64,000 nucleotides of DNA from Lactovum miscens (GTDB taxonomy: Bacteria; Bacillota; Bacilli; Lactobacillales; Streptococcaceae): contig NZ_JACHHV010000003.1 of assembly GCF_014202895.1 (NCBI RefSeq), positions 1 to 64,000 of the forward strand, read 5' to 3'. This document shows, piece by piece, positions 5,208 through 46,953 of this stretch. The notes under the pieces were generated by a model that was not told the DNA's origin, made no database searches, and was given only the letters and a program-made list of their open reading frames with translations. A program made the translations under genes and the position numbers. Positions within the stretch are counted from its first letter, which is position 1; each line of letters opens with the position of its first letter.

Positions 5208-6098
5208 ATGAAGAAAAAAGTACTGGTTGTGGTAGGCCCAACTGCTGTGGGGAAGTCGGCTTTAGCGGTGAGACTGGCGCATGAGTTTAAGGGCGAAATT
5301 ATTTCAGGAGATTCTCAGCAAATTTATCGTGGTTTAAATATTGGTACTGCAAAGGTAACTAGCGATGAGATGGGTGGGATTTCTCATCATTTGATTAATA
5401 TCCGAGACTTAAATGAAAACTTTTCGGCTCATGACTTCGTTTTGTCTGCGATGACTGCCATTGAGGATATTATATCACGCGAGAAATTACCTATTATTGT
5501 TGGAGGAACTGGCCTATATATTCAAGCGCTTACTGAGGGATATCATCTTGGGGGGGAGAAAAATCATGAATCAATGATGAAACTACGTCAAAGATTGAAG
5601 TTTTATTCAGACAACGAACTAAAATTGGCTTTGAATCCTGAAAATCAAATTCAGCAGTTCAATCGTCGACGAGCTATCCGAGCAATTGAATTACAAGAGT
5701 TTGGGAAAGGAGAAAATTATGAAGTCCCGTACGATTTTGGATATATTGGACTTGAGTCCGAACGTGCGATTCTTTATGACCGAATTAATAAACGCGTAGA
5801 TCGGATGCTTGAGGTTGGGATTCTTGACGAGGCAAAAAAACTTTTTGAAGGTTACCAACAAGTTCAGGCATCAAAAGCAATAGGTTATAAAGAGTTTTTC
5901 CCATATTTTAAGGGAGAGATTTCTCTTGAAGAGGCTGTGGAAAAATTGAAACAGGACTCTCGGCGATACGCTAAACGTCAGTTGACTTGGTTTAAAAATC
6001 GGATGGATGTGAAATTCTTTGATGTTTTTGAGCTGGACTTCCTTGAAAATGTTATAATGTGTATAAGCGAATTCCTTAGAAATAGAGAGGACGACTGA
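5208..6098 (+). CDS. miaA: tRNA dimethylallyltransferase MiaA
   Basis: Transfers a dimethylallyl group to N6 of A37 in tRNAs that read codons starting with U. The protein has 296 residues, the usual length. The P-loop GPTAVGKSAL lies near residue 9, followed by GEIISGDSQQIYRGLNIGTAK, IIVGGTGLYIQALTEGY, and the C-terminal KRQLTWFKNR motif. The reading frame is open further upstream, but the protein proper starts at ATG 5208. No Shine-Dalgarno precedes it, and the -10 box ends 7 nt before it. The gene may be cotranscribed with the unknown gene starting at 6123, 24 nt after the stop. Confidence 0.95.
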   Translation: MKKKVLVVVGPTAVGKSALAVRLAHEFKGEIISGDSQQIYRGLNIGTAKVTSDEMGGISHHLINIRDLNENFSAHDFVLSAMTAIEDIISREKLPIIVGGTGLYIQALTEGYHLGGEKNHESMMKLRQRLKFYSDNELKLALNPENQIQQFNRRRAIRAIELQEFGKGENYEVPYDFGYIGLESERAILYDRINKRVDRMLEVGILDEAKKLFEGYQQVQASKAIGYKEFFPYFKGEISLEEAVEKLKQDSRRYAKRQLTWFKNRMDVKFFDVFELDFLENVIMCISEFLRNREDD

Positions 6099-9082: not shown

Positions 9083-9457
9083 TTACTTATGAAAAGGAGA
9101 CCTAGGCTTATTTTTTTTAGCTGAAGGAGAGCTTTTCAGTTTTATTCTATTAGAAGCAGTCTCAAGTTGTGCTTTGATTTTAAAATTATTTTCAAGCTGT
9201 TTAATTTCGTTACGTTGCGCAATTTCTTCATCATCTGCTTTAAAAAAATTAATTTGTATATCAAAGTCAGGAAGCTCTAACTGGTCACCTGGGTAGATTT
9301 TTTTCCCACGACGGTTTTCAACCTCACCATTGTAAAAAATTCGTCCATCATTTTCAGCCAAGAAATATTTTGCTTGGCCGCCAGTTTGAATGAGACCCAG
9401 CTCCTTTAAAGCCTGTCCTAGAGTAATAAAATCTTCATAAATCGTAAGAGTTTCCAT
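9083..9457 (-). CDS. yaaA: S4-domain protein YaaA
   Basis: Small RNA-binding protein, 124 residues from the ATG chosen here. It has an S4 fold (ITLGQALKELGLIQTGGQAK, then GRIFYNGEVENRRGKKIYPG) and a basic C-terminal tail (SSPSAKKNKPRSPFHK). YaaA proteins sit beside recF in many Firmicutes. An upstream ATG exists at 9466, but it overlaps the minus-strand TATAAT box (9470-9465). The ATG at 9457 (METLTIYEDF) lies exactly 7 nt after that box and has no Shine-Dalgarno, so a leaderless start at 9457 is preferred. Confidence 0.85.
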   Translation of the reverse strand: METLTIYEDFITLGQALKELGLIQTGGQAKYFLAENDGRIFYNGEVENRRGKKIYPGDQLELPDFDIQINFFKADDEEIAQRNEIKQLENNFKIKAQLETASNRIKLKSSPSAKKNKPRSPFHK

Positions 9458-9463
9458 GTGATT

Positions 9464-9489
9464 CATTATAGCATGAAAATGCTATAATG
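9464..9489. promoter_or_regulatory. Palindromic divergent promoter, two leaderless genes
   Basis: cattatagcat and atgctataatg form a perfect 11-bp inverted repeat around gaaa. Each arm contains a TATAAT, pointing outward: plus strand 9483-9488 and minus strand 9470-9465. The ATG of ymfF (9496) and the ATG of yaaA (9457) each lie exactly 7 nt beyond their own box. Neither gene has a Shine-Dalgarno. The -35 positions would overlap the opposite promoter. Confidence 0.7.
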
Positions 9490-9495
9490 AACCCT

Positions 9496-10761
9496 ATGCC
9501 AACTATTTTAACAAGTGCGAATGGACTGAAGATTCAGCTCATTCATGAAACAAAATTTAAAACAGTCAGAATCGTCGTCCGTTTTCGAGAATTAATTAAT
9601 CAAGAGCATTTAGCTGAACGTGCGCTCTTGTCAAATCTTTTTGAAGTTTCATCTTCTAAGTATGCCACGAGCAGCGACTTTGAGACGGCCCTTGCAATGA
9701 ATTATGGAACTCGCATGTCATCCAGCGTTTCAAACAAAGGAGTTCAACATTTTTTGACTTTGGCTATGAATGTGGTAGAACCACGTTTTGTTGGGGAAGA
9801 TACACTAAAGACTGCAGTGGATTTCCTTCAAACAGTGATTTTTGAACCAAAAGTTTCGGGTAATCAATTTGATACTTCAATATTTGAAATTGAAAAAAAT
9901 AATCTTTTGCATTATTTTGAATCGTTATTGGATGACAATTCTTATCTTGCTGCCAAAGGTTTGAGTGAACTCTATTTTGATAAGAAAGAATTCAGTTTAT
10001 CCAACATGGGATCAGCTGAGCAACTTAAACAGATTGATGCAAAACATCTGTTTGAATATTATAAAGAAATGATGACCTCAAATGTTATGGATATCTTTGT
10101 TCTAGGGAACATTACCGAAGCAGAAGTTGCTGAGCTTTTTTCTAGTTGGCAGTTTAAAGGCAAAAGTGAATTAACTGAAATTTTTTACCAACAACCCGTT
10201 AAATTATTTGAAAGCCACAGTATCGAAAAAGAGGCCTTCCAGTCACAACTTTCTCTTGCTTGGAATTTACCAATTCAGTTTGGTGACAAAGATTATATGG
10301 CACTACAACTTTTTAATGCTCTTTATGGAAGTCAACCTAATTCTAAATTATTTAGTATCGTTAGGGAAAGGGAAAGTTTAGCTTATGAGATCAGCTCTTA
10401 TTTTGACAGCTTTATTGGCCAATTCCGTGTTTCTGCTGGAATTGATCCAGCAGATTACGTTAGGGTTAAAGAACTAACTCTACAACTTTTTGAAGCTATG
10501 AAGAATGGTGATTTCTCTGACGAGGATATGGCACAATGTAAAGCTCTTCTCAGAAACGCTTTTTTAGCAAGCCAAGATAGTGTAGCTAATTTGGTTGAAG
10601 AAGCATTTATTGATCAAATTTTACCTGAACGTAAATTAACCTCTAAAGAATGGCTGTCACAATTAGAAGAGGTTACTAAGGGAGAAGTTCAAGATGTTGC
10701 TGAGCGCTTGACTTTACAAGCAGAGTTTCAAGTGAAAGGGGTCGTTCCGAATGATTACTGA
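9496..10761 (+). CDS. ymfF: M16 peptidase-like protein YmfF (non-catalytic partner)
   Basis: 421 residues, peptidase M16 fold, related to B. subtilis YmfF. The equivalent of the zinc motif reads HLAERALLSN and lacks HxxEH, so this chain is probably inactive and works with the next gene product. A second M16 half-domain follows (QSQLSLAWNLPIQFGDKD, RERESLAYEISSYFDS). In B. subtilis YmfF/YmfH relatives are tied to elongation factor P modification; the role here is by analogy. An in-frame ATG at 9487 overlaps the -10 box, so ATG 9496 is preferred. It overlaps ymfH by 11 nt. Confidence 0.85.
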   Translation: MPTILTSANGLKIQLIHETKFKTVRIVVRFRELINQEHLAERALLSNLFEVSSSKYATSSDFETALAMNYGTRMSSSVSNKGVQHFLTLAMNVVEPRFVGEDTLKTAVDFLQTVIFEPKVSGNQFDTSIFEIEKNNLLHYFESLLDDNSYLAAKGLSELYFDKKEFSLSNMGSAEQLKQIDAKHLFEYYKEMMTSNVMDIFVLGNITEAEVAELFSSWQFKGKSELTEIFYQQPVKLFESHSIEKEAFQSQLSLAWNLPIQFGDKDYMALQLFNALYGSQPNSKLFSIVRERESLAYEISSYFDSFIGQFRVSAGIDPADYVRVKELTLQLFEAMKNGDFSDEDMAQCKALLRNAFLASQDSVANLVEEAFIDQILPERKLTSKEWLSQLEEVTKGEVQDVAERLTLQAEFQVKGVVPNDY

Positions 10762-12084: not shown

Positions 12085-12972
12085 ATGGTGCAGAAAGCTA
12101 TTGGTGCCCTATTGAAAGAGCGTCGCACCAAGCTTGACTGGAGCCTTGATAAGGCAGAAAAAACTACGTCAATTAAGAAAATTTACATTTCAGCACTTGA
12201 AACAGAGAATTTTGCCATTTTTCCAGGTACTTTCTATGTCCGTGCGTACTTGAAACAGTATGCTCAAAAATTAGACTTAGATGTTGAAGCGATTCTTGAG
12301 GCATTTGAAAACGATTCTCCTGTTGAAGTAGAAGGCCCATTTGAAGATACTGGCAATTACCGTTTCATTCGACCTGATGAGAGAATCCCGTTGCCAAGTG
12401 AGGAAGAGGATGAAGAAAATAAAACTTGGGTTCAGCGATATTTGCCAATGATTGTTCTGGCAACAATTGCAATTATTATTCTTCTTAGTGTTAGCTTAAT
12501 GGTTTTTCTTAATTTACCAAAGTCAAGCACTGTTACACCTAATGATTATAGTTTACCTTCAAGCAGTTCTACGGTGGCCTCTAAAACAAGCCTGAATCTA
12601 TCGGCTGATGGTAAAATTTTACAAATATTCACAAATAAGGATACGGTAGATTTACTCTTTGACCTAAATAGTAATGTAGCCATAGCCACAGCCAGTGCCT
12701 CTGGAAATGTTACTCAATCAATCACTTTAACTTCTACAGGGCAGAAGTCGGCTGAGTTTTCACTAGAAAAGAAGACAACCACATCAACCTTGACGCTTAG
12801 TGAAATCAAATCTATGACCATTACAATTAATGGACAAAAACTTGATATTTCAAAAGTTTCTGTTCCTTCAAACGTGATTAACTTGCAAATCATATATAAT
12901 GTTAGTGGAACTCAAAGTCAATCAAGTAGTTCAACTTCTCTAAACCAAAGTTCGTCATCATTTAGTAATTGA
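12085..12972 (+). CDS. RodZ-like cell-shape protein
   Basis: 295 residues. The N-terminal Cro/CI-type helix-turn-helix (residues 3 to about 75: GALLKERRTKLDWSLDKAEK, then IYISALETENFAIFPGTFYV) marks the RodZ family. One membrane segment lies at about 116-139 (MIVLATIAIIILLSVSLMV), followed by an extracellular Ser/Thr-rich part ending in polyserine. RodZ links MreB or the elongation machinery to the membrane; in ovoid cocci it belongs to peripheral wall growth. Start: strong GAAAGGAGGG just before ATG 12085. Its stop overlaps an in-frame upstream extension of pgsA. The order M16 pair-rodZ-pgsA is conserved in Firmicutes. Confidence 0.85.
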   Translation: MVQKAIGALLKERRTKLDWSLDKAEKTTSIKKIYISALETENFAIFPGTFYVRAYLKQYAQKLDLDVEAILEAFENDSPVEVEGPFEDTGNYRFIRPDERIPLPSEEEDEENKTWVQRYLPMIVLATIAIIILLSVSLMVFLNLPKSSTVTPNDYSLPSSSSTVASKTSLNLSADGKILQIFTNKDTVDLLFDLNSNVAIATASASGNVTQSITLTSTGQKSAEFSLEKKTTTSTLTLSEIKSMTITINGQKLDISKVSVPSNVINLQIIYNVSGTQSQSSSSTSLNQSSSSFSN

Positions 12973-13633: not shown

Positions 13634-13654
13634 AAATCGCCTTTAGGCGATTTT
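13634..13654 (+). terminator. Rho-independent terminator after pgsA
   Basis: aaatcgcc and ggcgatttt pair around a ttta loop, about 75 nt after the pgsA stop. Confidence 0.75.
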
Positions 13655-46481: not shown

Positions 46482-46520
46482 AAAAACTCAAAGATTACTT
46501 TAGTGATCTTTGAGTTTTTT
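46482..46520. terminator. Terminator after tuf
   Basis: aaaaactcaaagat and atctttgagtttttt form a long stem with a small loop. Confidence 0.85.
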
Positions 46521-46608
46521 GATAAATATAAAGCTACTTAAAGACTTGATAAGTCTTTTTAATATAAAATAAAGGATTTAGGCAAAATAAAAGAGGAGTA
46601 CTCCTCTT

Positions 46609-46953
46609 TTAAGCATCAGCTTGGTTAAATATTTCACGATTAACAAAGAGTTGCATCTGGAAGTAGAATTTTTCAACAATTATAGGGTCTGAATTTTTAA
46701 AAATATTAACTTCACGAAGACCCGACTTATCTGTGATTGAAAGTTTGAAGCCAGACAAATCATTATTAACAATAATCTTTAGCAGGAAGCCCTCGCCAGA
46801 ATTAGGGGAGACCTCAAGTAATCTTTGAAATTCGAAATTTCCTAATTTATTAGGAACGAAAGTCAAATCTCGTAGTGTATATTTCTTGATATTTGAAGAA
46901 AGTGTGTAAGTATACTTACTGTCTTTCAGCTTTTTTTCAGTGATAAAGGCCAT
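46609..46953 (-). CDS. DUF1831-like protein paired with cysteine desulfurase
   Basis: 114 residues, resembling the DUF1831 family found next to cysteine desulfurases in Lactobacillales. No catalytic motif; predicted beta-rich (YTLSSNIKKYTLRDLTFVPN). The start overlaps the last base of the cysteine desulfurase stop, so translation is coupled. It may assist sulfur transfer, inferred from context only. Confidence 0.7.
   Translation of the reverse strand: MAFITEKKLKDSKYTYTLSSNIKKYTLRDLTFVPNKLGNFEFQRLLEVSPNSGEGFLLKIIVNNDLSGFKLSITDKSGLREVNIFKNSDPIIVEKFYFQMQLFVNREIFNQADA

Follow-up and report, generated by a model that had tools for sequence, protein, structure and literature searches.

Neither leaderless genes nor divergent promoters are new in themselves. 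The conjugation genes of pLS20, for instance, are reportedly driven by overlapping divergent promoters whose control works as a genetic switch and involves DNA looping (PMC4207663); the promoter pair described here, found in a 64-kb stretch of DNA (the window, meaning the whole of the sequence analysed), likewise consists of overlapping divergent promoters in a Gram-positive bacterium, but no regulator is seen at it. The bidirectional promoters of Warman, Grainger and colleagues, as described in the excerpts available (PMC12825309, PMC10268837), resemble it in driving divergent transcription from short, AT-rich, symmetric DNA on which the polymerases are sterically exclusive. In theirs, according to the same excerpts, one -10 element is shared or overlapped; the starts are mostly 18 bp apart, though 10 and 23 bp also occur, and the class is marked by that shared -10 and by starts 7-25 bp apart; the window pair differs in having two separate extended -10 boxes, with hexamers 12 bp apart and presumed starts 39 bp apart, and in following a family-wide whole-turn spacing.

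On the side of translation, the excerpts of the relevant reports give 8-9% of operons or mRNAs in three streptococci as leaderless, mostly from the A of the AUG (PMC6431027, PMC6212727, PMC4448216), describe a strong TG ahead of the -10 box of Lactococcus leaderless genes in a sequence survey (PMC3160421), and cite a 70S route for leaderless initiation (in PMC6431027). The leaderless sigma-A transcripts of Streptococcus and Lactococcus, as far as those excerpts describe them, are like the genes studied here in having a -10 about 6-7 nt from the AUG, no Shine-Dalgarno sequence and a TG before the box (PMC6431027, PMC6212727, PMC4448216, PMC3160421); the difference is that the window has two such promoters packed back to back, and divergent pairs are not a subject of those excerpts. 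What is new is that two leaderless promoters fit in ~44 bp, both start codons included, in an arrangement that recurs in the family, and that the spacing of such pairs tracks the DNA helix.

Results

The minus strand carries yaaA, encoding an S4-domain protein and adjoining recF (TIGR02988; 9083..9457), and recF itself (TIGR00611; 7980..9062), whilst the plus strand carries yfmF (NF047422, EF-P modification-associated; 9496..10761), yfmH (NF047421; 10751..12016), a rodZ-like gene (NF041534, score under the curated cut-off; 12085..12972) and pgsA (TIGR00560; 12984..13559). All were assigned by NCBIfam profiles, which give YfmF and YfmH where the initial annotation had written ymfF and ymfH. That annotation took yaaA-recF and yfmF-yfmH-rodZ-pgsA as the two transcription units. 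We retain the first, and yfmF-yfmH, whose reading frames overlap; the extension to rodZ-pgsA becomes a perhaps, since the rodZ-like gene has its own Shine-Dalgarno sequence (AAGGAGG) and starts 68 nt past yfmH, so that it need not rely on the dyad promoter described below. Downstream of pgsA lies hisS, with a terminator-like hairpin (13634-13653) between the two.

Between yaaA and yfmF, where the sequence from 9461 onward reads ATTCATTATAGCATGAAAATGCTATAATGAACCCTATG, there is a perfect dyad at 9462-9491, with a left arm TTCATTATAGCAT (9462-9474), a GAAA loop (9475-9478) and a right arm ATGCTATAATGAA (9479-9491). The palindrome reported initially is real, but it had been given as 26 bp long; at 13+4+13 = 30 bp, the perfect dyad is 4 bp longer. 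Each arm does contain the outward-facing TATAAT that was claimed for it, at 9483-9488 (+) and 9470-9465 (-), and each ATG (9496-9498, +; 9457-9455, -) does lie exactly 7 nt past its own box. A feature on which the first description was silent is the TGC that precedes both hexamers and makes them extended -10 boxes: TGCTATAAT at 9465..9473 (-) for yaaA-recF and again at 9480..9488 (+) for yfmF-yfmH, both without a -35 element. The outer length of this box pair, whose hexamers are separated by 12 bp, is 24 bp.

A promoter scan reported no -35-containing promoter at the dyad site, and Shine-Dalgarno sequences are absent upstream of both the yaaA and the yfmF ATG. Both promoters fit the leaderless extended -10 class (TATAAT 6-8 nt from the AUG, TGn before the hexamer, neither -35 nor Shine-Dalgarno). 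From sequence and conservation, the presumed +1 is the A of each start codon, 7 nt past its box: A at 9457 for yaaA (start codon 9455..9457, -) and A at 9496 for yfmF (9496..9498, +), presumed starts 39 bp apart. Both mRNAs would then begin at or next to the AUG, and be leaderless. The initial claim that two leaderless genes are fired back to back is supported by the lack of Shine-Dalgarno sequences, by leaderless spacing on both sides and by the retention of the arrangement in relatives.

An in-frame ATG also lies within each -10 box (TATAATG), at 9466 and 9487, with the result that automatic annotation probably begins both genes three codons too early. These ATGs make a longer start of yaaA or yfmF, on a leadered transcript from elsewhere, conceivable, which may count against the leaderless reading. 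In the closest relative (G019, whose YfmF is 71% identical), the ATG inside the box is absent and the ATG 7 nt beyond the box is kept, on both sides.

Over 464 kb of the genome (the window plus 20 other stretches; ORFs of at least 50 aa), the distance from TGNTATAAT to ATG is 6 nt in 15 cases and 7 nt in 8, together 23 of 48 cases, with at most 2 at any other distance from 0 to 40 nt; so sharp a peak argues that the 7-nt spacing at yaaA and yfmF is not chance. In the whole genome (1.755 Mb in 61 contigs), TATAATN6-8ATG occurs 218 times vs 82 for a reversed control, and TATAAT with 18-20 nt before the ATG 113 times vs 74. The genus is represented in our set by five genomes, and in the four others the N6-8 counts against the reversed control are 169 vs 58, 206 vs 24, 212 vs 68 and 163 vs 14. 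Further genes of the window with TATAAT 6-8 nt upstream of the ATG, and likely leaderless too, are those at 5208, 22237 (-), 34445 and 38423.

All but two of the 245 family genomes have a yfmF match, and upstream DNA was fetched for 110 of these 243, of which L033, at a contig end, was dropped from the spacing count. Divergent yaaA was found at 94 of the 110 loci: 63/64 in g4, 13/16 in g8, 10/12 in g9, 4/5 in g1, 4/4 in g2 and 0/9 in other genera, g4 being apparently Streptococcus and g8 a Lactococcus-type genus. The lactococci invoked by the initial annotation are an apt frame at the level of the family only. Leaderless spacing of yfmF occurs in 5/5 genomes of the window's genus and in 0/104 others, and that of yaaA in 3/4 of its own genus, 13/13 of g8, 4/4 of g2 and, if 5 nt is accepted, 10/10 of g9; in g4 it occurs in 1/63, solely for an alternative upstream ATG. 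Given this distribution across genera, and as far as sequences can tell, the leaderless state of yaaA looks old, and that of yfmF looks like an innovation of the window's genus.

Within the genus, G019 has TGCTATAAT-7-ATG on each side with 22 bp extra between the boxes, for an outer length of 46 bp. G026 (TGCTATAAT-6-ATG and TGTTAAAAT-7-ATG) keeps the outer length of 24 bp with a yfmF box that has drifted; yaaA of G011 is Shine-Dalgarno-led, with its box ~60 nt upstream; and in G001 the divergent neighbour is not yaaA but another gene with a leaderless-like start. Outer lengths in the four genus genomes with yaaA at the locus are 24, 24, 46 and 103 bp. Comparing the dyad among relatives, as had been proposed, shows that the palindrome as such is not kept, but that both promoters and their 7-nt spacings are, in G019. 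In the window genome and G019, the two arms are alike over 12-13 nt, and from one genome to the other they change in step (GAA/GAA vs AAA/AAA after the box). This co-varying identity in the two closest genomes exceeds what the consensus by itself demands and, like the loci of G011 and G001, counts against the reading as two independent leaderless promoters.

The 13+4+13 dyad stands out above chance expectation. Besides it, the window has just three other perfect inverted repeats (arm at least 11, loop 0-12), two of them hairpins with A/T runs at their flanks and the third a loop-less palindrome; 12 dinucleotide shuffles of the window gave 0-1 such repeats each, and an arm of at least 13 in none. 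The loop-less perfect palindrome, the 24-bp TAAAAGAGGAGTACTCCTCTTTTA, lies at 46588-46611, with a terminator-like repeat (46482-46519) ~70 bp away. The dyad at yaaA/yfmF is palindromic because both its arms are near-perfect copies of one consensus, TGCTATAATRAA, and the best reading of it is as a consequence of two near-consensus boxes, not as a conserved operator.

Predicted compact leaderless promoters set back to back are a recurring design in the Streptococcaceae. Two-sided leaderless pairs with perfect boxes number four in the window's own genome, three in G019 (one of them the orthologue), three in G011 and one in G026; besides the window pair and its G019 orthologue, there are nine further pairs in these four genus genomes, three of them elsewhere in the window's own genome, and such pairs also exist in two g8 genomes. 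All pairs inspected, which is every one except the G019 orthologue, have ORFs of at least 67 aa on both sides. The msrA and parE/plsY pairs are each found in two genomes (profile matches in G000, protein starts by eye in G019), as is def opposite a gyrB-like gene (profile matches in G011, by eye in G026). Where argR stands opposite an argS-like gene, the geometry is that of 24-25 bp and argR alone is leaderless. Neighbouring functions as unrelated as these argue against a single regulon. The back-to-back argR/argS-like genes were seen in three species of the genus (L157, L158 and L301, with argR of L301 recognised by eye), at outer lengths of 24-25 bp, and in two of the three the 10-nt inner arms are identical to those of the window dyad.

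The pattern ATTATANCAN{0,30}TGNTATAAT, searched in 57 of the 245 family genomes over 31 outer-length bins, returned 134 outward-facing extended -10 pairs vs 5 for the reversed control. Outer lengths peak at 23-25 bp (39 pairs), 33-36 bp (33) and 43-46 bp (35), which places 107 of the 134 in 11 of the 31 bins; between the peaks are 10 pairs at 26-32 bp, including six g9 pairs of 30 bp, and 5 at 37-42 bp. The window pair, at 24 bp, is of the tightest class. After similar sequences were clustered within each genus (52 to 87 clusters by threshold, five thresholds), the best period is 10.8-11.1 bp with R 0.52-0.60 and bootstrap limits of 10.2 to 12.2 over the thresholds, and of 3000 trials with uniform lengths, no more than about 1 in 1000 reached the observed R. 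When any one genus is dropped, R (10.5 bp) stays at 0.52-0.60, and the phase is alike in all four genera (2.8-3.4 bp).

At the yaaA/yfmF locus, where pairs were scored with one mismatch per box, outer lengths of up to 60 bp are 24, 24 and 46 (g1), 23 or 24 (14 g4 genomes), 46 (five), 55 and 57 (g8), and 24 and 25 (g9). None of these departs by more than 0.15 turn from a whole number of turns counted from 24, in locus states that are in part shared by descent and in part overlap the strict 134-pair set; locus pairs of more than 75 bp are unphased.

For viral contigs of all hosts, R over the 81 places among the matches listed was 0.13 at a period of 10.5 bp and rose to 0.23 (Z 4.5) at 11.5 bp; the peak bins took in 34 of these 81 vs ~29 expected. 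A control of pairs without TG on either side, which drew on 86 of the g8 matches listed, some duplicates being omitted, comprised 41 pairs and showed a weak tendency of the same sense (R 0.27). With phasing absent or weak in these two controls, it does not look like an artefact of AT-rich sequence. Nor are -35 elements a likely source: TTGACA-like hexamers are not enriched in the 41-48 bp class, matching at least 4/6 in 16% of 62 pairs and in 16% of shuffles. Other families of the order yielded 8 pairs in 51 genomes vs 5 in the control, too few for a phasing test. In pairs of the 43-48 bp class, AT-rich patches precede the TG by 2-6 and by 12-16 nt; in 26 single leaderless promoters the first patch is present, and a period is not clear. 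The phasing suggests either a fixed rotational relation of the boxes, or AT-rich patches upstream of the boxes that are in register.

Discussion

We hold it to be highly probable that the locus consists of two independent sigma-A extended -10 promoters set back to back, each giving a leaderless mRNA, and that it is one case of the helically spaced pairs seen across the family. Each extended -10 box would recruit sigma-A polymerase alone, 70S ribosomes would initiate on the 5' AUG, and, with polymerases clearing in turn, both operons would be expected to be expressed.

The footprint of a polymerase spans more than 39 bp. As the hexamers are 12 bp apart and the presumed starts lie inside one footprint, a polymerase bound at one promoter should keep a second off its neighbour, and we infer that occupancy of the two promoters is probably exclusive. 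To this extent the overlap described by the initial annotation is likely to matter as proposed; the further step, to operons that exclude each other's expression, is unsupported. Indeed, at the E. coli bidirectional promoters, where the overlap is tighter, basal firing is too rare for competition, according to the excerpt available (PMC12825309).

Could the pair nonetheless act as a true polymerase switch, in which competition for occupancy turns the two operons on alternately in single cells? The presumed starts do lie within one polymerase footprint, both boxes are consensus, such that firing could be frequent, and at the bidirectional promoters of E. coli one side is repressed when its partner is strongly activated (excerpt of PMC12825309). 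However, the same excerpt has competition absent at basal activity, the tight overlap is not retained in G019 with its outer length of 46 bp, and both operons are housekeeping, with no obvious need for alternation; we regard a switch as unlikely.

The likeness of the arms might also come from template switching or hairpin-guided correction between them, with promoter constraint minor beyond the boxes. The co-variation of the arms between the window and G019 speaks for this, but a single co-change was seen, and the arms have diverged in G026 and G001, which makes such an origin quite improbable. That the dyad is the operator of a symmetric DNA-binding protein (ArgR-like or another dimer, as the initial annotation had allowed) which represses both operons together is very doubtful: for all that the 13-bp arms are perfect, and that the same 24-bp palindrome (ATTATAGCAT-n4-ATGCTATAAT) stands ahead of argR in two relatives, where autoregulation would be natural, this reading was set aside because spacing varies at the orthologous locus (from 24 bp in the window to 46 bp in its closest relative, with both promoters retained, and up to 103 bp in the genus, in place of the conserved arms and spacing of the regulator-operator class) and because the genes behind similar pairs are unrelated (argR, msrA, parE/plsY and def by profile; argS, tyrS and metS by eye), to which is added the different core, ATTATACCATAATTTATGATATAAT, of the argR-like gene in the window's own genome.

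For the two independent promoters that we prefer, we are inclined, on balance, towards a helical-phase rule in the Streptococcaceae, by which the outer length would be ~24 + n x 10.5-11 bp (n = 0, 1, 2, perhaps 3) and the promoters rotationally fixed. If true, this rule would imply an undescribed coupling of divergent polymerases: a shared landing face, phased AT patches, or perhaps selection for clean mutual exclusion. The open-access literature searched gave no earlier account of divergent extended -10 promoters being phased with the helix. Should the phasing hold in start-site maps, it would give direct access to the competition of two polymerases for one stretch of DNA at promoters that lack a -35, and would supply a design rule for compact cassettes for divergent expression in lactic acid bacteria.

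A different arrangement was seen at L160 (G000 C2:91922-91947), which reads CAT-n6-ATTATAAT-n6-ATG: here two leaderless-like ATGs, both putative gene starts, flank one shared palindromic -10, in a configuration that resembles the overlapping type of bidirectional promoter.
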